Positions 20,308-30,464 of a stretch of DNA of 35,348 nucleotides are shown here, piece by piece. The stretch covers positions 1 to 35,348 of the forward strand of contig JAFAXS010000147.1 in assembly GCA_019240755.1 (NCBI GenBank), given 5' to 3'. How positions within the stretch are numbered: position 1 is the first letter of the stretch; each line of letters starts with the position of its first letter. This DNA comes from Vulcanimicrobiota bacterium. GTDB taxonomy: Bacteria > Vulcanimicrobiota > Vulcanimicrobiia > Vulcanimicrobiales > Vulcanimicrobiaceae. Both the position numbers and the translations under genes were made by a program. Under the pieces are notes generated by a model, which was not told where the DNA came from, searched no databases, and saw nothing but the letters and a program-made list of their open reading frames with translations.

Positions 20308-21804
20308 TTATCCGTGTTGCCGCTGCATCGGGAAGAGCAGTACGTCGCGCACCGAGCGTTGATCGGTCAGCAGCATCATCAGCCGGTCCACCCCGATTCC
20401 GATGCCGGCGGTCGGCGGCATACCGTACTCGAGCGCGCGCACGAAGTCCCAATCCGGCTCGGGAATCTCTTCGTCACCGGCGATGCGATCGGCGACTTGC
20501 GCCTCGAAGCGTGCGCGCTGATCGTCGGGATCGTTCAACTCGGTGAAGGCATTCGAGATCTCCATGTTCGCGCAAAACAGCTCGTACCGGTCGACGACCT
20601 CGCCGTCTTTCGACCGCCGTTTCGCGAGCGGAGAGATTACGGCGGGATACCCGGTGACGAACGTCGGAGCAACGAGGTGCGGCTCCGCGATCCGCTCGAA
20701 GATCTTGTCGAGGGCGTGGCCGTGCGTCGGCGATGCCGGCAGCCCCAGCTCCCCGAGAACCTCCGCAGCCTGCCGGGCATCGAGCAACCGCGCTCGCGTA
20801 TACTTACCACCGCTAAAGCGCGCGAGCGCGTCGAAGTACTCGATGCGCGCGAACGGGCGCGCGAACGAAATCGTGGTGTCGCCGTGGCGCAAATCGGTCG
20901 CGCCCGCCGTCACGAAATCGACGAGATGCGCGACCAGGGCCTCGTTGAACTCGAGCATGTCCGACACGTCCCAATAGGCGGCATAGAGCTCGAGCATCGT
21001 AAACTCGGGGTTGTGCGTCGTGTCGATCCCTTCGTTGCGAAAGATTCGCCCGATCTCGTAGACGCGCTCCATCCCGGCGACGATCAGGCGCTTGAGGTTG
21101 AGCTCCGTCGCGATGCGCAGCTGTAACTGCCGGTCGAGTGCGTTGCAGTGCGTCACGAAGGGACGCGCCGCGGCGCCTCCCGCGACGTGCAACAGCGTCG
21201 GCGTCTCCGCCTCGTAAAATCCGCGCGCGTCGATGAAGCGGCGCATCTCCGCGATCAGCCGGCTGCGCAGCATCAGCGCCTCGCGCGCGTCGGGGTTGAC
21301 GACGAAGTCCACGTAGCGCTGACGGTAACGCTTTTCGATATCTTGCAGACCGTGCCACTTGTCGGGGAGCGGGCGCAAGGCTTTCGCGATCGGCGAAAAT
21401 GCCGTCACATGCAGCGTCAGCTCGCCGACCTTGGAGCGAAACATGTAGCCGCGCACCGCGATGAAATCCCCGCGGTCGAGGTCGTGCCAGTCGGCAAACG
21501 CGTCGTCGCCGACGTCTTGGCGGCGGACGTAGACCTGGATGCGCCCCGTACGGTCGGCCAGATCGGCAAAGACCGTCTTGCCCATCGTGCGTTTGCTCAA
21601 GACTCGGCCTGCCAGGCTCCAGGCTTCCGCGGCCGCGTCTTGCCCCGGCTCGAGAAACGCGTAGCGCTCGAGCAGCTCTTGCGCGGTTGCGTCCACGTCG
21701 CAACGGCGCTGCGCAAACGGATCCCTGCCCCGCGAACGCAACGCGGCCAGATTCTCTCGTCTGGCCGCGATGAGGGCTGCCTCAGTCTTGCCGAGTTCGT
21801 CCAA
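20308..21804 (-). CDS. lysS: Lysyl-tRNA synthetase (class II)
   Basis: 498 aa, normal length. An N-terminal OB-fold anticodon-binding domain (about 60-160, GRVLSKRTMGKTVFADL) is followed by the class II catalytic domain with motif 2 (YEIGRIFRNEGIDTTHNPEF) and motif 3 (GIGIGVDRLMMLLTD). It charges tRNA-Lys. It is followed by truA and preceded by greA, as in several Gram-positive-like genomes. Confidence 0.98.
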   Translation of the reverse strand: MDELGKTEAALIAARRENLAALRSRGRDPFAQRRCDVDATAQELLERYAFLEPGQDAAAEAWSLAGRVLSKRTMGKTVFADLADRTGRIQVYVRRQDVGDDAFADWHDLDRGDFIAVRGYMFRSKVGELTLHVTAFSPIAKALRPLPDKWHGLQDIEKRYRQRYVDFVVNPDAREALMLRSRLIAEMRRFIDARGFYEAETPTLLHVAGGAAARPFVTHCNALDRQLQLRIATELNLKRLIVAGMERVYEIGRIFRNEGIDTTHNPEFTMLELYAAYWDVSDMLEFNEALVAHLVDFVTAGATDLRHGDTTISFARPFARIEYFDALARFSGGKYTRARLLDARQAAEVLGELGLPASPTHGHALDKIFERIAEPHLVAPTFVTGYPAVISPLAKRRSKDGEVVDRYELFCANMEISNAFTELNDPDDQRARFEAQVADRIAGDEEIPEPDWDFVRALEYGMPPTAGIGIGVDRLMMLLTDQRSVRDVLLFPMQRQHG

Positions 21805-21815
21805 CGAGACCCTCG

Positions 21816-22325
21816 CTATGAAGCTTTCCGGGCCGCCTTCTTCGGTGCGCTGCTCTTGATTGACTCGATCTTGTACTTTGCCAAGCCCCGCGGCGTGGCG
21901 ACGTCTACGGTCACGCCCTTCTTGTGCCCCATCAGCGCACTGCCGAGCGGCGACTCGTTGGAAATACGGCGGTTCGGCGGGTCCGCTTCAGCCGAACCGA
22001 CGATCGAGAACTCGTAGGTGTCGTTATTTTTCAAGTCGCGCACCTTGACCACTGCGCCGAGGTGCACCTCATCGGCCGCGTACTCCGACTCGTCGATCAG
22101 CCGGGCGTTGCGAATCATCGCCTCGAGCTTGAGGATCCGGCCTTCGATGAAGGCCTGCTCTTGCTTGGCATCTTCGTATTCAGCGTTTTCGCTGAGATCG
22201 CCGTACTCTTTGGCTTGGCGAATGCGGTCGTTGACCTCTCGGCGATGGACGCTCTTGAGCTCGTCGAGCTCCCGCTCCAACTTCGATAGGCCCTCGGCCG
22301 TCAGGACGATCTCTTTCTCGTTCAA
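21816..22325 (-). CDS. greA: Transcription elongation factor GreA
   Basis: 169 aa from TTG 22325, preferred because GTGAGG lies 9 bases upstream and the protein then opens NEKEIVLTAEGLSKLERELD like its relatives. GTG 22340 is the alternative. The N-terminal coiled coil with RIRQAKEYGDLSENAEYEDA holds the acidic tip residues that restart backtracked RNA polymerase. The C-terminal FKBP-like domain contains GSAEADPPNRRISNESPLG. A basic Lys/Ala tail ends the protein. The gene stops 11 bases before lysS. Confidence 0.96.
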   Translation of the reverse strand: MNEKEIVLTAEGLSKLERELDELKSVHRREVNDRIRQAKEYGDLSENAEYEDAKQEQAFIEGRILKLEAMIRNARLIDESEYAADEVHLGAVVKVRDLKNNDTYEFSIVGSAEADPPNRRISNESPLGSALMGHKKGVTVDVATPRGLAKYKIESIKSSAPKKAARKAS

Positions 22326-22487
22326 CCTGTAGATCCTCACCGGGGCTAGATGAAAGCCGGCCCCGCCTTTATAGCGCCGGCTCAACGCTGGCGCGGGGTG
22401 TTCTGAGGGCTCCGCTCCAACGCCTTCCCGGACGATTCCGGCGCAGGCGCGGCTAGCAGTATACCCAGCGTGCCCGTCGTTGAAGCA

Positions 22488-23402
22488 CTATGCCGCGCCC
22501 CTCAAACGCACCACGCGCGGCCGCAGCTGCAGCGCGTCCAGCAGCCGATCGTACTCCTCGGGCGCCACGTCTTCCCAGCGCTTGCGCAGCAGCGCGACCA
22601 GCGCCGCTTCGAGCACGTTCGTGCCGAACGATCGGCCTTCGATGTCCGGAGTCGTCGTAATCAGCAGCGTGACTCCCCGCGCCGCCAGCTCCTCGACGTT
22701 GCCGGGCGTCACCGTGTTGGTCAAGACGATCTTGCCGTCGAGCCGCGGCGGCATGAACTGGCGCATGAAGTGGAAGTCTCCGGCGATGATCTCCGCGTCG
22801 TCGTAGTACTGCGGATATTTCGGCTCGGGCGGCTTCTCTTGTTTCTTCCCCGTCGGGTAGAAGAACTGAAACGGCAGCTTGCATGCGTCGGGGAGATATT
22901 TTTCGGCGAGCTCTTCGAAGCGGTGCAGGTCGCGCACCGGCATGTCTTTGTCCAGCGCGAAGATGAAGTCGCCGAACAGTACGTCGGCGCCGGCGTCCAC
23001 TAGCGCCTGCGCCATCCCGAAACGGTCGAGTGCGCTGACCATCAGAACGCGCTTCCCACGCAGATTCATGCCGAGGTCGTCCTGCATGAACTTCACGGCC
23101 TTCCGCTCGAGCGTGTTCTTCAGGCCGCTGCCGTCCACGACGGGAGTGAGCGTCGCCGCTTCGAGTAAGCGCAACCCGTCGCGCAACGCGTAGCGATGGC
23201 GTCCTGCATAGAGATAGACGTCGATTCCACCGAGGCCGATCGCATCGACGTTTCCGTCGAGCTCGCGCACCATCGCGATCGCGGCATCGAGCTTACCGTC
23301 GGTTCCGACGCGCGAGATATCGAACTCCTCGCCCAAGAATTGCGCGCGCGCGCGATGATCGCGGCTGCTCGATCCGAGCGAAACGGAAACGACCCGCTTC
23401 AC
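22488..23402 (-). CDS. Quinate 5-dehydrogenase-family protein (function unproven)
   Basis: 304 aa, GTG start at 23402. The opening KRVVSVSLGSSSRDHRA and the segments AIGLGGIDVYLYAGRHRYAL and LRGKRVLMVSALDRFGMAQA (nucleotide-binding-like) match a family that databases call quinate 5-dehydrogenase. I know of no biochemical support for that name, so the activity is left open. The downstream part contains TNTVTPGNVEELAARGVTLL. A long palindrome occupies the leader directly before the start. It is the last gene of a four-gene set with an acyl-ACP-reductase-like gene. Confidence 0.75.
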   Translation of the reverse strand: MKRVVSVSLGSSSRDHRARAQFLGEEFDISRVGTDGKLDAAIAMVRELDGNVDAIGLGGIDVYLYAGRHRYALRDGLRLLEAATLTPVVDGSGLKNTLERKAVKFMQDDLGMNLRGKRVLMVSALDRFGMAQALVDAGADVLFGDFIFALDKDMPVRDLHRFEELAEKYLPDACKLPFQFFYPTGKKQEKPPEPKYPQYYDDAEIIAGDFHFMRQFMPPRLDGKIVLTNTVTPGNVEELAARGVTLLITTTPDIEGRSFGTNVLEAALVALLRKRWEDVAPEEYDRLLDALQLRPRVVRLRGAA

Positions 23403-23405
23403 GAG

Positions 23406-23505
23406 TTCACCATCTTGGCTGCGGCTCGGAGTATGCCAGCCTCGCTAATTTTCAGGTCAATCGCTCGGCTGGCATACTCACTCGCCGCAGCTTGCATATG
23501 GTGAA
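23406..23505. repeat. Palindromic element, copy 1 (REP/REPIN-like hairpin)
   Basis: A 12-bp perfect stem, GAGTATGCCAGC (23429-23440) with GCTGGCATACTC (23468-23479), encloses a 27-base loop. Outer stems GCTGCGGC/GCCGCAGC and TTCACCAT/ATGGTGAA extend it to about 100 bases. The loop matches the loop of copy 2 (opposite strand) at 25 of 27 positions. It forms the leader of the quinate-dehydrogenase-family gene. Confidence 0.85.
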
Positions 23506-23514
23506 TCCCTCCGC

Positions 23515-24714
23515 TCATGGCTGCCGCGGTTGACGAGCGGGTATGGCACCCGAGCGATTAACCTGAGAATTAGCGAGGGTGCCATACCCCGGGGCAACTG
23601 CGGCATGCTCAGAGTCACCGCGGCGCGCGGCGGCGGCGCTGCGAGTTGATGCGAGTTTTTCCGGCGTGATCGCGGCGTCGAACGCCCGCATGTCGGCTAG
23701 CTCGAAGCCGCAGCGAGCCGCCATCTCGGAGATCTCGACGACCTTCTCGAGGGCGATGCCGCGTCCGAGCGTGTATGGTTCGAGGCGCCCTTCCAGGGCG
23801 AGCACCATCGTCTCGCTCATGCATGCGAGCGCCGTTCCAGGCGGCAAGTTGAGATCGAACTCGGCCCCAGGCTCGCGCACTCGTTCGAATCGCGGAGTGC
23901 CCGGGACTCGCATGTTGCCGCCTTCGACGACCAGCACGTCGGGACGGTGCTGCGCGACGCGGCGGCTCACGTCGTGCGGCAGCGAGAGCTCGCAGACGAC
24001 GGCGCCGGTTTGTAGATGCTCCGGCTCGATGACGTCGCTGGTCGAGCTGGTCGCCGTGAGAATCAGCTGCGAGCGGCGGACCGCCGAGTCGAGATCGGTC
24101 GTGTACTCGCTGGGGCACGGGAGCCGATGCGCGATTCGTTCGTGAAACTTGCGCAGCCGCGTCTCGTTGCGCGCGACGAGAATCAACTCTCTGACCTTCG
24201 GCGCAATTAAAGCGACGCATGCCGCGCCGATCGAGCCCGTCGCGCCGATCACCGTCGCGGTCGAGCGAGCGGGATCGACGCTCATCTCCGCCGCACCCCG
24301 AAAGAGGCTCTCGACGCCGCTCGCGATCGTTAAAGAGTTTCCCGTCGTTACCGGAATCGGCGAGCGCGCGTTGATCGTCACGCCGGCGTCGCCCACGACG
24401 CCGGTGAAGGCGCCGAGCCCAGCGACCTGCGCGCCCAGCTCGACGCCGATCTCGATCGCGCGCAGGACGCGCCGGTAGACTTCTTCGCGCGGAAAATCCA
24501 TCAGCTGCTGCGGCAAGAGCGGGGCCGCGACGAACCATCCCTCGGTCTCGCGTCCATCCGGCGCGCGCACGCCCGTAACGTGCACCGCCGCGTATGACGG
24601 CATCCACTCCATGATCTTGCGCAGAATCGGCTCGCCCTTGCCCTTGGCGCCCGGCTCGTAGCGCGCGATATCCTCGAACGATAACGGATGGATGACGAAG
24701 CAGAATCTGTTCAC
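23515..24714 (-). CDS. Acyl-ACP reductase-like (AAR) NAD(P)H-dependent dehydrogenase
   Basis: 399 aa, GTG start overlapping the START-fold gene's stop (GTGA). The pattern follows cyanobacterial long-chain acyl-ACP reductase: VAGLGAFTGVVGDAG (98-112), TTGNS (123-127), Rossmann loop VIGATGSIG (155-163), ELILVARNETRLRKF, and ALACMSETMVLALEG with Cys298 at the place of the acyl-accepting Cys. AAR reduces acyl-ACP to fatty aldehyde. Some databases place such non-cyanobacterial relatives under shikimate/quinate dehydrogenase. The last ~24 residues (from GYGTLANSQVNRSG) come from an inserted palindrome and are not family sequence. Confidence 0.78.
   Translation of the reverse strand: MNRFCFVIHPLSFEDIARYEPGAKGKGEPILRKIMEWMPSYAAVHVTGVRAPDGRETEGWFVAAPLLPQQLMDFPREEVYRRVLRAIEIGVELGAQVAGLGAFTGVVGDAGVTINARSPIPVTTGNSLTIASGVESLFRGAAEMSVDPARSTATVIGATGSIGAACVALIAPKVRELILVARNETRLRKFHERIAHRLPCPSEYTTDLDSAVRRSQLILTATSSTSDVIEPEHLQTGAVVCELSLPHDVSRRVAQHRPDVLVVEGGNMRVPGTPRFERVREPGAEFDLNLPPGTALACMSETMVLALEGRLEPYTLGRGIALEKVVEISEMAARCGFELADMRAFDAAITPEKLASTRSAAAARRGDSEHAAVAPGYGTLANSQVNRSGAIPARQPRQP
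23523..23604. repeat. Palindromic element, copy 2 (inverted relative to copy 1)
   Basis: A 12-bp perfect stem, GGGTATGGCACC (23539-23550) with GGTGCCATACCC (23578-23589), surrounds a 27-base loop that is the reverse complement of copy 1's loop with two changes. The stem differs from copy 1 at three positions, each compensated on the other arm. Outer arms GCCGCGGTTG / CAACTGCGGC add pairing. The element is read through as the C-terminal codons of the acyl-ACP-reductase-like gene. Confidence 0.85.
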
Positions 24715-25148
24715 GTCTGCTCCGCCTCGCGCTTGAGCGCCGCCAGCATCATCTCGCTGTTCTCGCGGACTTTTTTCTCGAGAGTCGGGCCGATCAACTC
24801 GGCCAGTGTCGGCACGCCAAAATCATACTCAACGCCCAGCGCCACGTGCGTGACGCCATCGCGGTGTTCGAAGGTCCAGGCGCCCTCGAACTTGTCGAGA
24901 TCGCCCTCCACCAACTTGTAGTCAATCCGTAAGGCGGCGTCATCGAACACGTCTTCCTCTGTCCACTCAATCGGCGCCTCTTCCACGAGCGTCTTCCAGC
25001 GCGACACGACGCCGCCGGGCTGCCGCCGAAGGATCGTCACGCTCTCGACGTCGGGCATGAATTGCGGAAACCGTTCTTGGTCTTTTGCCAATTCGTAGAC
25101 GGTTTTTGCCGGAGCAGCGATGGCGATTCGCGTCTCAACATAGGGCAT
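24711..25148 (-). CDS. START/SRPBCC-fold protein (COQ10-like, polyketide cyclase family)
   Basis: 145 aa from ATG 25148. It opens PYVETRIAIAAPAKTVYELA and KDQERFPQFMPDVESV, the classic start of COQ10/aromatase-type SRPBCC proteins, and ends in a long amphipathic helix. The fold is a hydrophobic-ligand pocket. COQ10 members bind quinones or lipids. Coupling to the AAR-like gene (GTGA overlap) suggests it carries or presents a hydrophobic intermediate of the same pathway, which is inference. It starts 7 bases after the aminotransferase stop. Confidence 0.85.
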   Translation of the reverse strand: MPYVETRIAIAAPAKTVYELAKDQERFPQFMPDVESVTILRRQPGGVVSRWKTLVEEAPIEWTEEDVFDDAALRIDYKLVEGDLDKFEGAWTFEHRDGVTHVALGVEYDFGVPTLAELIGPTLEKKVRENSEMMLAALKREAEQT

Positions 25149-25155
25149 CGGGGCG

Positions 25156-26457
25156 TCAGCGCGCGGAGTCCGTCGGGAGCGTTCCCAGTTTTTCATAGGC
25201 CGCGGCGACGCCCTGACCCAGCGCGGACAGCGCACGATCGATCTCCGCGCCGCTAACGATCAGCGGCGGTTCGAGGCGGATCACGCGCTGTTGGTTCAGC
25301 GTCCACGCGGCGGTGACTCCGGCCCTGAGCATCTCCGGAATGATGAACCCACCGTAGCCTTCGTGCGTGAGCTCGACGCCCACGAGCAATCCGAGCCCGC
25401 GAGCCTCTCGAACGACGGTGGGATACTCCGTGGCGATCGCTTGCGCGCCGCCGAGCAACTGCTCTCCTCGCTCGCGCGCGCGTGCGACGAGGCCTTCTTC
25501 TTCCAAAACGTCCATGGCCGCGAGCGCGGCCGCGCACGCGATCTCGCTTCCGCCGAACGTCGAGGTGTGCACGAGCGGCGCGTCCCCGAACGCGCGCAGC
25601 CAAACGGCGGCGCGCGCGATCAACGCTCCGACCGGAATTACACCGCCGGAGAGGCCTTTAGCGAGCGTCATTACGTCGGGTACGACGCCGTCGCGATCGC
25701 AGGCGAACCGATAGCCGCAGCGTCCCAAACCCGTTTGCACTTCGTCGGCGATGAAGAGCGCGCCGAAGCGATCGCAGAGCTCGCGCACCGCCTGTAAGTA
25801 TCCGTGCGGCGGGATGTTGACGCCGCCCTCGGCCTGAACCGGCTCGACCACGAAGGCCGCCGCATCGCTCAACTCGCGTTCGAGCGCGTGCGCGTCGCCG
25901 TAGGGGATTGCGACCGAATCTGCGAGCAGCGGACGAAACTTCGATTGAAACGGCTCGCGGCCGCTGACGGAGAGCGCCCCGAGCGTCTTGCCGTGATAGG
26001 CGTCGACCGTGCTGACGATCTTCGCTCGGCCCGTCGCGGCGCGCGCGAGCTTGATCGCGCCCTCGATCGCTTCCGTTCCGCTGTTGCACCAAAACGAGAT
26101 TTGCAAGTCGCCGGGAGCGAGCTCCGCGAGACGGCGCGCGGCGCGCCCGAGCACGACGTTGAACATCGTCTTACCGGAGAGAGCCATCCGCTCCAGTTGT
26201 TCGCGCGCCGCGGCGACGACGCGCGGATGGCGATGGCCGAGCGTGAAGACGCCATAACCGCCGGCAAAATCGAGATACGCCTTCCCGCTCTGGTCCCAGA
26301 TCGTGCAGCCTTCCGCGCGCACCTCAACCGGCGAACCGGAAATTTTCATCACGCGCGCCAGCGGCGGATTCACGAACTGTTTGTAGTTCTCGTAGACCTC
26401 GGCCGCCAGCGCTTGCGCCGACTCGGCGCCATAAAGGTCGTCGCGCTCTTCAATCAT
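25156..26457 (-). CDS. Class III PLP-dependent aminotransferase (putrescine/ornithine/GABA type)
   Basis: 433 aa. Landmarks are NSGTEA (125-130), AYHGKTLGALS (153-163), Asp238 in FIADEVQTGLGR, which holds the PLP ring nitrogen, and Lys267 in TLAKGLSGGVIPVGA, the Schiff-base lysine. The family moves amino groups between omega-amines or amino acids and aldehydes or 2-oxo acids. Closest in feel are putrescine aminotransferases. It is the first gene of the set with the START, AAR-like and quinate-dehydrogenase-family genes. An aldehyde made by the AAR-like enzyme would be a natural substrate. Confidence 0.9.
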   Translation of the reverse strand: MIEERDDLYGAESAQALAAEVYENYKQFVNPPLARVMKISGSPVEVRAEGCTIWDQSGKAYLDFAGGYGVFTLGHRHPRVVAAAREQLERMALSGKTMFNVVLGRAARRLAELAPGDLQISFWCNSGTEAIEGAIKLARAATGRAKIVSTVDAYHGKTLGALSVSGREPFQSKFRPLLADSVAIPYGDAHALERELSDAAAFVVEPVQAEGGVNIPPHGYLQAVRELCDRFGALFIADEVQTGLGRCGYRFACDRDGVVPDVMTLAKGLSGGVIPVGALIARAAVWLRAFGDAPLVHTSTFGGSEIACAAALAAMDVLEEEGLVARARERGEQLLGGAQAIATEYPTVVREARGLGLLVGVELTHEGYGGFIIPEMLRAGVTAAWTLNQQRVIRLEPPLIVSGAEIDRALSALGQGVAAAYEKLGTLPTDSAR

Positions 26458-26704: not shown

Positions 26705-27700
26705 TCATGCTGCCACTAAGGCGGATGCTTCGAGCCGCTCGATCGTTGCTTCGATCAACGCCGTCGCATCGGCGGCGCGATCCAAGCGCATGATCTGTTC
26801 GCGCAACATCGCGGCGCCGGAGATGCCTTTGAGATAGAGCGCGACGTGCTTGCGCATTTGCGGAACGGCCCGCGACTCGCCCAACTCGTGTACCATCGTT
26901 CGATAGTGCACGAGCGCAAAGCGCAAGCGATCGGGCGCGGACGGCACCGGCGACGCCGCCCGCCCCTCCATTAGGTCGCGAATCTGCGTGATGAGCCACG
27001 GATTCCCGAGCGTCGCTCGGCCGAGCATGATCGCATCGACGCCGCTGTCGCGCATCTTTGCGATTGCGTCATGCGGATCGTCCAGATCGCCGTTGCCGAT
27101 GACCGGAACGTCCACGGCCCGCTTGAGGCGAGCGATGTGCTCCCAATCGGCCGCGCCCTTGTAAAACTGCTTCGCCGTGCGCGCGTGCAGCGTGACGGCC
27201 CGCACGCCGACGCTTTGCGCGCGGCGCGCGACGTCAACGTAGACGAGCGAATCGTCGCTCCAACCCAGACGCATCTTCATCGTCACGGGACAGTCGACGG
27301 CGCCGACGACCGCGCGCATGATCGCCTCGCAGCGATCCGGATCGCGCAAGCACGCCGAGCCGCCGTTGGTCTTCGTGACTTTCGGGGCCGGACAACCGAA
27401 GTTGATGTCGACGATGTCGGCCCCGCACTCGCGCACTACCTTCGCGGCCAGCGCCATCGTGCTCGGATCGTCGCCCCACAGTTGCGTCGAGACGGGCCGC
27501 TCGAGGCCGTGCTGATCGATCATCTCCATCGTGCGCCGGCTCCCGTACGCCAGCGCATTCGACGAAACGAACTCCGTCACGGTCAGGCCGAGCCCGAAGG
27601 GACGATAGAGCGCGCGCATCGTCCGGTTCGTCACGCCGGACATCGGCGCGAGAATCAGCGGCGGCCAAATCTCGATCGAGCCTATCGCCAGCGGTCGCAT
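26705..27700 (-). CDS. dusB: tRNA-dihydrouridine synthase (DusB type)
   Basis: 331 aa. It reduces uridines in the tRNA D-loop using FMN. Landmarks are LILAPMSGVTNRTMRALYR, VDINFGCPAPKVTKTNGGSA with the catalytic-type Cys, VTLHARTAKQFYKGAADWEH, and IGNGDL for FMN phosphate binding. It begins 6 bases after the coaX stop, so it is read with the CoA genes, an arrangement also seen in other bacteria. The tRNA gene lies downstream on the opposite strand. Confidence 0.95.
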   Translation of the reverse strand: MRPLAIGSIEIWPPLILAPMSGVTNRTMRALYRPFGLGLTVTEFVSSNALAYGSRRTMEMIDQHGLERPVSTQLWGDDPSTMALAAKVVRECGADIVDINFGCPAPKVTKTNGGSACLRDPDRCEAIMRAVVGAVDCPVTMKMRLGWSDDSLVYVDVARRAQSVGVRAVTLHARTAKQFYKGAADWEHIARLKRAVDVPVIGNGDLDDPHDAIAKMRDSGVDAIMLGRATLGNPWLITQIRDLMEGRAASPVPSAPDRLRFALVHYRTMVHELGESRAVPQMRKHVALYLKGISGAAMLREQIMRLDRAADATALIEATIERLEASALVAA

Positions 27701-27706
27701 CCGCGC

Positions 27707-28471
27707 TTATTTGGCTCCCGCGGCCGCAAAGCGCTGCAATCCGAACAGGCTCAGGTGCGGCTCCATCGCGTCGACCGCCGTGGTTTGCGCGGCGACGATC
27801 GACGCGAGGCCGCCGGTCGCCACCACGCGCGCGTCCACGCCCATCTCCGCGCGCATGCGCGCGACGATCGCTTCGATTTGGCCGGCAAAGCCGAAGAGGA
27901 TGCCGCTCTGGAGGGCTTCGATCGTGTTGCGTCCGATCGAGTGTCTCGGCGGCTCCAACGCGACCTGCGGCAGCTTCGCGGTGCGCCCGATCAAGGCGTC
28001 GATAGAGATACTCACTCCGGGCGCAATCGCTACGCCGAGATATTCTCCCTGCGGCGAAATCGCGATGAAGACGGTGGCAGTACCGAAGCTGACGACGATC
28101 AACGGTGCGCCGAAGATCTCGCGCGCGCCGATCGCCGCCGCAACCAAGTCGGCACCCACTTCGGACGGATTCTCCGTGCGGATCGCGATGAGCCCTTGCG
28201 TTTCCGGCTTCAAGAATACGGGCGACGCCGCGAACACGTTCGTACACGCGGCGTCCACGATCGCGTCGAGTCCCGGGACGACGCTCGCCACCGCGATCTC
28301 GGTGATGTCGGGCGCTGCGACGCCGCCGGCGGCAAAGAGTTGTGCGAACAAGACGGCGTGCTCGTCGGGCGTACGTAGCTCCGTCGTGACGCGCCACGTT
28401 CGTACCAGTCGTTCGCCGTCGAAACAGCCGAGTTTCGTCTCGGTGTTGCCGACGTCGATCGCTAAGAGCAC
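27707..28471 (-). CDS. coaX: Type III pantothenate kinase
   Basis: 254 aa from GTG 28471, overlapping the coaBC stop by 10 bases. It opens LLAIDVGNTETKLGCFDG with the phosphate-loop Asp of the acetate/sugar kinase fold. ENPSEVGADLVAAAIGA and VSFGTATVFIAISPQGEYLG are CoaX signatures. It phosphorylates pantothenate, the first step of CoA synthesis, and unlike CoaA is not feedback-inhibited by CoA. An open frame continues upstream but belongs to coaBC's shadow. Confidence 0.95.
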   Translation of the reverse strand: MLLAIDVGNTETKLGCFDGERLVRTWRVTTELRTPDEHAVLFAQLFAAGGVAAPDITEIAVASVVPGLDAIVDAACTNVFAASPVFLKPETQGLIAIRTENPSEVGADLVAAAIGAREIFGAPLIVVSFGTATVFIAISPQGEYLGVAIAPGVSISIDALIGRTAKLPQVALEPPRHSIGRNTIEALQSGILFGFAGQIEAIVARMRAEMGVDARVVATGGLASIVAAQTTAVDAMEPHLSLFGLQRFAAAGAK

Positions 28472-29640
28472 CGCATCAGCTCCCCGACCGCATCGAGCAG
28501 CCGCGCCGCCAGCGTCGCCTTGTCCGCGCGTCCGAGCTCGCGGCGGCCGTCTTCTCCCCACAGCAGCACCAGCTCGTTCTCGCCGGTACCGAAGCCGCGC
28601 TCGCCGGCCACGTCGTTCACCGCGATCGCATCCAAGTGTTTGGCGCGCAGCTTCGCGCGCGCATGGCGTTCGTGATCCTCGGTCTCGGCGGCGAACCCCA
28701 CCAAGAACGTGTTCCCCTTGCGCTCGCCCAGCGCTGCGAGCACGTCCGGATTCGGCTCGAACGCGACGGTCAGCGCATCGCCGCTCTTCTTGAGCTTCGA
28801 GTCCGAGGCGTGCGCGGGTCGCCAATCGGCGACGGCCGCGGTCGCAATCGTCAGGTCGGCGCCGACGGCGCACTGCAGCGCCGCGGCGCAGAGTTCTTGT
28901 GCGGTCGAAAAGCGCACGACGTCTACTCCCGCCGGAGGCTCCAGCAGCGTCGGCCCGAGCAGCAACGTCACCGCGGCGCCGCGCAGAGCGGCTTCGCGGG
29001 CCAACGCGATGCCGGTTGCGCCGGTGGAGGCGTTGCTCGCAAAGCGCACGGGATCGAAAGGTTCGCGCGTGGGCCCCGCGGTGATCGCAACGCGCTTGCC
29101 CTGGAGGCTGCGGCGCCGCGCGAAGGCCCGATCGAGCGCGTCAACGATTCGTTCCGGCGACGCCAGGCGACCCATGCCGCTCTCGCGTTCGGCCAAAAAT
29201 CCCCGCTCGGGATCCACGATCTCGTAGCCGCGCGCCTGCAAGGCGCGCAGATTCGCTTGCGTCGCGCCGTCTTCGTACATCGCATCGTTCATTGCCGGCG
29301 CCAAGATTCGCGGAATGCGGGCGGCTAAGAGCGCCGACGTCAGCAGATCATCTGCGATGCCGGCCGCGAGCTTCGCGATGAGGTTCGCCGTCGCCGGTGC
29401 GACGAGCGCGACGTCGGCCTCGCGCACCAGGCGTATGTGCGGAATGCGCTCCGGCGCATCCCAGAGCGATGTGTACACTGGTCGCGCCGTCAGCGAGGCA
29501 AACGTGAGCGGAGCGATGAAGCGCTGCGCGGCCGCCGTCATGATCACGTCGATGGTTACTCCGCGCTGCACGAGCGTGCTCGCGATCGCGGCGGCCTTGT
29601 ACGCCGCGATGCCGCCGCAGACGCCGAGCAGCACTCTCAC
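28462..29640 (-). CDS. coaBC: Bifunctional phosphopantothenoylcysteine decarboxylase/phosphopantothenate-cysteine ligase
   Basis: 392 aa. The N-terminal CoaC flavoprotein half (1-~175) has VCGGIAAYKAAAI, PHIRLVREADVALVAPATAN and ILAPAMNDAMY. The C-terminal CoaB half starts KRVAITAGPTREPFDPVRF and contains SNASTGATGIALAREA. It adds Cys to 4'-phosphopantothenate and decarboxylates the product. The start overlaps the panC stop by 4 bases. Confidence 0.96.
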   Translation of the reverse strand: MRVLLGVCGGIAAYKAAAIASTLVQRGVTIDVIMTAAAQRFIAPLTFASLTARPVYTSLWDAPERIPHIRLVREADVALVAPATANLIAKLAAGIADDLLTSALLAARIPRILAPAMNDAMYEDGATQANLRALQARGYEIVDPERGFLAERESGMGRLASPERIVDALDRAFARRRSLQGKRVAITAGPTREPFDPVRFASNASTGATGIALAREAALRGAAVTLLLGPTLLEPPAGVDVVRFSTAQELCAAALQCAVGADLTIATAAVADWRPAHASDSKLKKSGDALTVAFEPNPDVLAALGERKGNTFLVGFAAETEDHERHARAKLRAKHLDAIAVNDVAGERGFGTGENELVLLWGEDGRRELGRADKATLAARLLDAVGELMRCS

Positions 29641-30464
29641 GCGTTGACCCTGACGTTGTCGATGAGCCGCGTCGTGCCGAAACGCGCCGCCGCCACGAGC
29701 AACGCGGGACCTTCGGAGCGTTCGAGCGTCGCGAACGTCACCGGGTCGACGAGGTCGAGATAGTCGAGGGTGGCGCCGGCAGCGAGCGCCGCGCGTCCTC
29801 GCGCGATCGCCTGTTCTTTGGAACGCTTGCCCTCCAGCGCCTCGCGCGCCGCCGTCAGCGCGCGATAGAGTGACGGCGCCCGCGCGCGTTGCGTTTCATC
29901 CAGATAGCGGTTGCGGCTTGAGAGCGCCAGTCCGTCGTCCTCTCGAACCGTCGCGACCATCTCGACGTCCACCGGGATGTTGAGATCCGCGATCATCTTT
30001 TGAAGGATTGCCGCCTGTTGCGCGTCTTTCTCGCCGAGCACCAGCACGTCGGGAGCGACGATGTTGAGCAGCTTGGCGACGATCGTCGTGACGCCGCGGA
30101 AGTGGTGCGGCCGGTACGCACCCTCAAAGGCGGTGCCGAGCGAGCCGACTTCGACGAGCGTCGAGAAGCCCCGCGGATAGAGCTCGCGCGCTTCCGGCAG
30201 AAAGAGTATGTCGGCTCCGGCGGCCTCCAGCTTCGCGCGATCGCTCTCTGCGTCGCGGGGATACGCCGCAAAGTCCTCGTCGGGACCGAACTGCAGCGGA
30301 TTGACGAAGATCGAGACGGCCACGGTGGCGGCACGCCCCCGAGCGCGGCGAACCAACTCCAGATGGCCGTCGTGCAACGCGCCCATCGTGGGAACGAAGG
30401 CGAGCGGACGCTCCGACGCGCCGAAGAGCGCGCGCGCCCGCGCGACGTTGTGCGCTAGTTCCAT
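29637..30464 (-). CDS. panC: Pantothenate synthetase
   Basis: 275 aa, standard length. It condenses pantoate and beta-alanine with ATP. Landmarks are FVPTMGALHDGHLELVRRA with the HxGH-type nucleotide motif, VSIFVNPLQFGPDEDF, VLGEKDAQQAAIL and DGLALSSRNRYL. With coaBC and coaX downstream it forms a pantothenate-to-CoA operon. panB and panD are not in the window. Confidence 0.97.
   Translation of the reverse strand: MELAHNVARARALFGASERPLAFVPTMGALHDGHLELVRRARGRAATVAVSIFVNPLQFGPDEDFAAYPRDAESDRAKLEAAGADILFLPEARELYPRGFSTLVEVGSLGTAFEGAYRPHHFRGVTTIVAKLLNIVAPDVLVLGEKDAQQAAILQKMIADLNIPVDVEMVATVREDDGLALSSRNRYLDETQRARAPSLYRALTAAREALEGKRSKEQAIARGRAALAAGATLDYLDLVDPVTFATLERSEGPALLVAAARFGTTRLIDNVRVNA

Follow-up and report, generated by a model that had tools for sequence, protein, structure and literature searches.

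A preliminary description of the window (the whole 35,348-nt stretch of Vulcanimicrobiota DNA analysed here) placed a class III aminotransferase, a START-fold protein, an acyl-ACP reductase homologue and a supposed quinate dehydrogenase side by side, and suggested that they convert an acyl thioester to an aldehyde and then to an amine. What does this gene set make, and does it serve specialized or core metabolism? We favour, at slightly better than an even chance, a housekeeping module whose product, a long-chain alkylamine, goes into a membrane lipid.

Organization of the locus

The four genes form one operon on the minus strand, beginning with a class III PLP aminotransferase (hereafter AT; 433 aa, 25156-26457), followed by a START/Polyketide_cyc-fold protein (START; 145 aa, 24711-25148), an acyl-ACP reductase-like thioester reductase (AAR; 399 aa, 23515-24714) and a two-domain Rossmann-like protein (QDH; 304 aa, 22488-23402). 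The minus-strand ORFs confirm the adjacency described earlier, including the overlap of START and AAR, which share 4 bp with the letters GTGA; the gap between AT and START is 7 bp, and the START start codon corresponds to M30 of a longer ORF (24711-25235). A promoter and terminator scan of the locus returned signal near chance level.

On the same strand, the set is preceded by dusB (26705-27700; TIGR00737) and coaX, encoding type III pantothenate kinase (27707-28470, start approximate; PF03309), with coaBC and panC further upstream, and is followed by the conserved neighbours greA (21816-22385; NCBIfam GreA) and lysS (20308-21804; NCBIfam lysine--tRNA ligase). Together with dusB, the CoA/4'-phosphopantetheine supply genes coaX, coaBC and panC adjoin the set (26705-30464) and would suit acyl-thioester chemistry. 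As stated in the preliminary description, no aldehyde-deformylating oxygenase is found among the scanned neighbours lysS, greA, dusB, coaX, coaBC and panC, and an alkane pathway was rejected for lack of an oxygenase there.

A dispersed inverted-repeat element (23427-23591) with 58-bp arms (23427-23484 and 23534-23591) lies between AAR and QDH, and at least six further copies, 92-95% identical, occur in the genome. The element gives the AAR ORF its last ~33 aa, and its insertion breaks the 4-bp AAR/QDH overlap that relatives have.

AAR is a member of the acyl-ACP reductase superfamily

The NCBIfam model that AAR matches best is PigE, in its N-terminal half (1.6e-56), with 192 bits against a curated cut-off of 850 bits for the equivalog NF053554; the match to the cyanobacterial AAR equivalog TIGR04058 (1.3e-21, 77.4 bits) likewise falls below its curated cut-off of 449.7. 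Pfam Shikimate_DH matches the Rossmann part (6e-8), and sequence similarity extends to the structures of PigE (4ppm) and of cyanobacterial AAR. Structure prediction, one of the checks proposed with the original idea, yields a model (pLDDT 86.9) that superposes on the solved AAR structure 6jzy with a TM score of 0.81. The nucleotide-binding loop (GATGSIG at 157) and the catalytic Cys298 (within LACMSETM) are kept, as first read; C298 does not vary among 20 relatives, and all homologues examined (47/47) have the Cys. The window protein thus has both the AAR fold and the active-site Cys of the superfamily. It differs from the cyanobacterial enzymes in sequence (~22% identity) and in context, having an aminotransferase partner and no oxygenase nearby.

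AT and AAR have a precedent in PigE and TamH

AT belongs to Aminotran_3 (PF00202; 1.1e-97, 327.7 bits against a gathering cut-off of 30.5), and its PLP lysine, K267, is invariant. Among NCBIfam models it comes closest to the C-terminal half of PigE (1.9e-126), at 424 bits again below the NF053554 cut-off of 850. The window pair therefore represents the same two enzyme families as TamH of tambjamine YP1 and PigE of prodigiosin biosynthesis, with the Cys, the GxxGxxG loop and the PLP lysine all kept, although both window proteins score far below the PigE equivalog cut-off. In vitro, TamH converts C12-ACP to the C12 aldehyde and then to the C12 amine using NADH and L-Glu (PMC9594044), and PigE, besides transaminating, carries out the reduction of a thioester (PMC8341465). 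The earlier statement that no described pathway contains this set consequently fails for the AT-AAR pair. The proposed chemistry itself, from acyl thioester through aldehyde to amine, is well supported, given the PigE best matches, the TamH precedent and the AT-AAR fusions described below; because of these matches and reactions, together with the 6jzy fold and the kept residues, it is likely right but not without precedent. TamH and PigE are each one bifunctional polypeptide, whereas AAR and AT of the window are two ORFs, though fusions occur in other phyla.

The second-best similarity of AT is to putrescine aminotransferase, and it also resembles acetylornithine aminotransferase. Since sequence cannot tell substrate length, AAR might instead reduce a small or amino-acyl thioester, with a small diamine or amino alcohol as the product of AT, leaving START as unrelated lipid housekeeping. 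We consider this quite unlikely: the closest AAR, PigE and TamH relatives use medium- or long-chain acyl thioesters, a PlsY-type acyltransferase is fused to AAR in Deinococcota, and START is linked to the set.

START is an accessory component

START matches the Polyketide_cyc/START superfamily (PF03364; 8.1e-21, 75 bits against a gathering cut-off of 23.4), and its profile aligns over the full length with Thermus TTHA0849 (2d4r; 7e-29). At an E value of 1e-20, START is found in 16/39 AAR-positive genomes and in 0/39 others, the latter group including G195, a genome with a cyanobacterial AAR. The same profile comparison across genomes finds no START in many AAR-positive genomes. We treat START as accessory because it is enriched with AAR yet far from universal; a role in holding the hydrophobic intermediate, as originally suggested, would be plausible.

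QDH is a conserved companion of AAR

QDH is the most conserved member of the set, with a mean column identity of 71% over 20 relatives. No Pfam or NCBIfam model matches it, including PF01488 and the NCBIfam quinate dehydrogenase models, a sequence search against the PDB returns no significant match, and profile comparison detects no homology between QDH and AAR. The predicted model (pLDDT 90.8) has a Rossmann-like fold of two domains; among its top PDB matches the highest global similarity is a TM score of only 0.48, to AAR (6jzq) and to a carmabin-pathway enzyme. The many invariant polar residues suggest that QDH is an enzyme. With neither a family match nor a close fold match, QDH cannot be recognised as a quinate dehydrogenase, and the quinate-dehydrogenase family label it first received lacks support.

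That first annotation, and the Rossmann-like fold of the predicted model, could still point to a polyol or quinate dehydrogenase in a metabolically mixed neighbourhood. We give this very little credence: besides the missing family and fold matches, QDH co-occurs tightly with AAR and is fused to it in one genome (see below).

The gene set is housekeeping in Eremiobacterota

Conservation of the neighbourhood, chosen beforehand as a test that could refute the proposal, is strongly positive. QDH is present in 135/149 genomes of the phylum Eremiobacterota, and AAR in 56/60 relatives (41/42 among the better genomes). In 30 loci inspected, drawn from about fifteen families, the order AT-START-AAR-QDH-greA-lysS is kept where contigs allow, often with 4-bp overlaps, and all Eremiobacterota families inspected share this gene order, at 40-90% identity, an arrangement far beyond chance. 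Two Candidatus Eremiobacterota loci (L156 and L159), which tie the window to that phylum, show this order at ~70-80% identity to the window set; START was not found at the L043 locus. Genes that intervene in relatives (encoding a methyltransferase, a glyoxalase, a permease, a Band 7 protein and a DHDPS-family protein) are not conserved across the phylum and were left out of the set. In one class, a Band 7/SPFH zinc-ribbon gene lies between dusB and AT (L039, L040 and L042).

The locus is a housekeeping one rather than a natural-product cluster, and this is what is new relative to PigE and TamH: the window pair sits in a housekeeping operon with START and QDH. PigE and TamH being the closest characterised enzymes, a secondary-metabolite pathway of the prodiginine or tambjamine kind, making a pyrrole or an amine tail, deserves weighing, but it is highly improbable for a set that is near-universal in the phylum and syntenic with greA, lysS and dusB. 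A prodiginine-type cluster was considered and rejected, no other pig or tam genes being present among the neighbours.

AAR and QDH co-occur and are fused in other phyla

The QDH search gave 145 matches in all, 10 of them outside Eremiobacterota, that is, in 10/96 sampled genomes of other phyla. Among sampled genomes of other phyla, AAR is present in 10/10 QDH-positive and 2/70 QDH-negative genomes (Fisher 4e-11, a value that, like all cross-genome counts here, ignores shared descent). Of the two AAR-positive, QDH-negative genomes, one has an AAR of the cyanobacterial type and the other, of 9 Mb, an AT-AAR fusion. AAR is also found in 23/24 genomes behind the named QDH loci; in Thermobrachium celere, which has QDH, no AAR was detected. 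QDH is thus a near-constant companion of AAR. In G208, QDH and AAR form a single protein, and in G164 a QDH-like domain is joined to AAR (L054:2115-4172 and L069:8111-10513).

Gene order is recognisable at a distance. Four deep Actinomycetota loci read QDH-AT-START-AAR-greA-lysS, and the usual Bacillota order is coaX-dusB-QDH-AAR-greA-lysS. In Bacillota, the phylum of Desulfovirgula, AAR is present in 153/249 sampled genomes, and in 84/85 of the Desulfovirgula class. AT and AAR are fused in a single ORF in G194, in many Bacillota and in other genomes, and at many Bacillota loci no AT is seen near AAR. In one Bacillota locus (L101:10979-15331), QDH is followed by an AT-AAR fusion and, after it, by another class III aminotransferase. 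In the AT tree, the stand-alone cluster ATs of Eremiobacterota, Actinomycetota and UBP13 form one group (94/93), from which the fused ATs stand apart (98/99); one long-branched paralogue from the window genome falls inside the cluster-AT group.

The Bacillota loci with AAR and QDH and no adjacent AT raise the question of whether the aldehyde made by AAR mainly has another fate, such as an ether lipid, a fatty alcohol or a wax, with AT acting on a different, small substrate. Ether lipids are indeed made by Bacillota, and the likeness of AT to putrescine aminotransferase would fit. Set against this, AT and AAR are fused in many Bacillota and in G194 and adjacent in Eremiobacterota and Actinomycetota, and the presence of AAR tracks Deinococcota, a phylum with alkylamine lipids. 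We regard such a fate as unlikely and continue with an alkylamine as the product of AAR and AT.

AAR in Deinococcota and the alkylamine lipids

All 61 sampled Deinococcota genomes (61/61) contain AAR. Of the 14 named genomes used as controls, 11 are negative for the AAR family and three are positive, namely Synechococcus elongatus, Thermus composti and Deinobacterium chartae. The Synechococcus match is the alkane enzyme, and few lineages have known lipids. The Deinococcota AAR proteins examined have a different nucleotide loop, GANGVVA, and are fused to a PlsY paralogue with AT not adjacent, whereas the window AAR is a separate protein beside AT. This PlsY-AAR fusion is seen in 5/5 Deinococcota genomes examined in detail (Thermus L072:7365-9026 and L076-L079); its PlsY part is a divergent extra copy, and a separate canonical PlsY is also present. 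One genome, G167, encodes a fumarase nearly identical to 1vdk, which we take to be a Thermus protein, so that G167 is presumably Thermus. Thermus also has QDH and START relatives, the START match in one Thermus genome lying on another contig than AAR, and no AT adjoins AAR. Because AT is not beside AAR in Thermus and at many Bacillota loci, the amine step there is without physical linkage to AAR.

Thermus, Meiothermus and Deinococcus radiodurans all have N-glyceroyl alkylamine phospholipids; in the first two genera alkylamine phospholipids form the major phospholipids and are closely related to those of Deinococcus, from which such lipids were first reported in a description of 1985. T. thermophilus has an iso-heptadecanyl (iso-C17) alkyl group, matching the acyl chains of the organism, and to build N-glyceroyl alkylamine phosphoglycolipids, Deinococcota and some Bacillota require a fatty amine whose chain is of the same type. 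The enzymes that form the alkylamine chain were called unidentified in 2022. In Bacillota, Moorella thermoacetica also carries N-glyceroyl alkylamine lipids, and a 2025 paper (Bale et al.) is cited as reporting that such lipids dominate in several members of the phylum. For the sole cultured member of Eremiobacterota, polar lipids are listed only as unidentified.

A proposed alkylamine-lipid pathway

From the gene content, synteny, co-occurrence, fusions, catalytic residues and folds observed here, we infer a substrate, cofactor and direction for the pathway, roles for START and QDH, and a lipid end product. In AAR, Cys298 would accept an acyl chain from acyl-ACP (or acyl-CoA), which would be reduced with NAD(P)H to the fatty aldehyde; AT would then form the fatty amine by transamination, probably using glutamate. 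The hydrophobic aldehyde, the amine or a later lipid is probably bound or carried by START, and QDH may catalyse a further step alongside AAR, perhaps formation of the amide or of its acid partner. The likeliest product would be an amide lipid built on an alkylamine, resembling the N-glyceroyl alkylamine phosphoglycolipids found in Thermus, Deinococcus and some Bacillota.

On the simplest reading, AAR and AT make the alkylamine of the lipids of the Deinococcota/Bacillota type. A broader proposal, to which we give somewhat less than an even chance, identifies the module with the missing machinery that forms the alkylamine of N-glyceroyl alkylamine phospholipids, common to Deinococcota, Bacillota, Armatimonadota, deep Actinomycetota and Eremiobacterota. 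Being fused, syntenic and apparently distributed along with the lipids, the gene set makes the alkylamine question testable in the model organism Thermus thermophilus. If the proposal is true, acyl-thioester-to-amine chemistry would move from rare pigments to core metabolism, an alkylamine lipid would be predicted in a phylum of which very few members are in culture, and N-glyceroyl alkylamine lipids would be both old and widespread as components of membranes, while QDH would represent a new enzyme family that acts with them.
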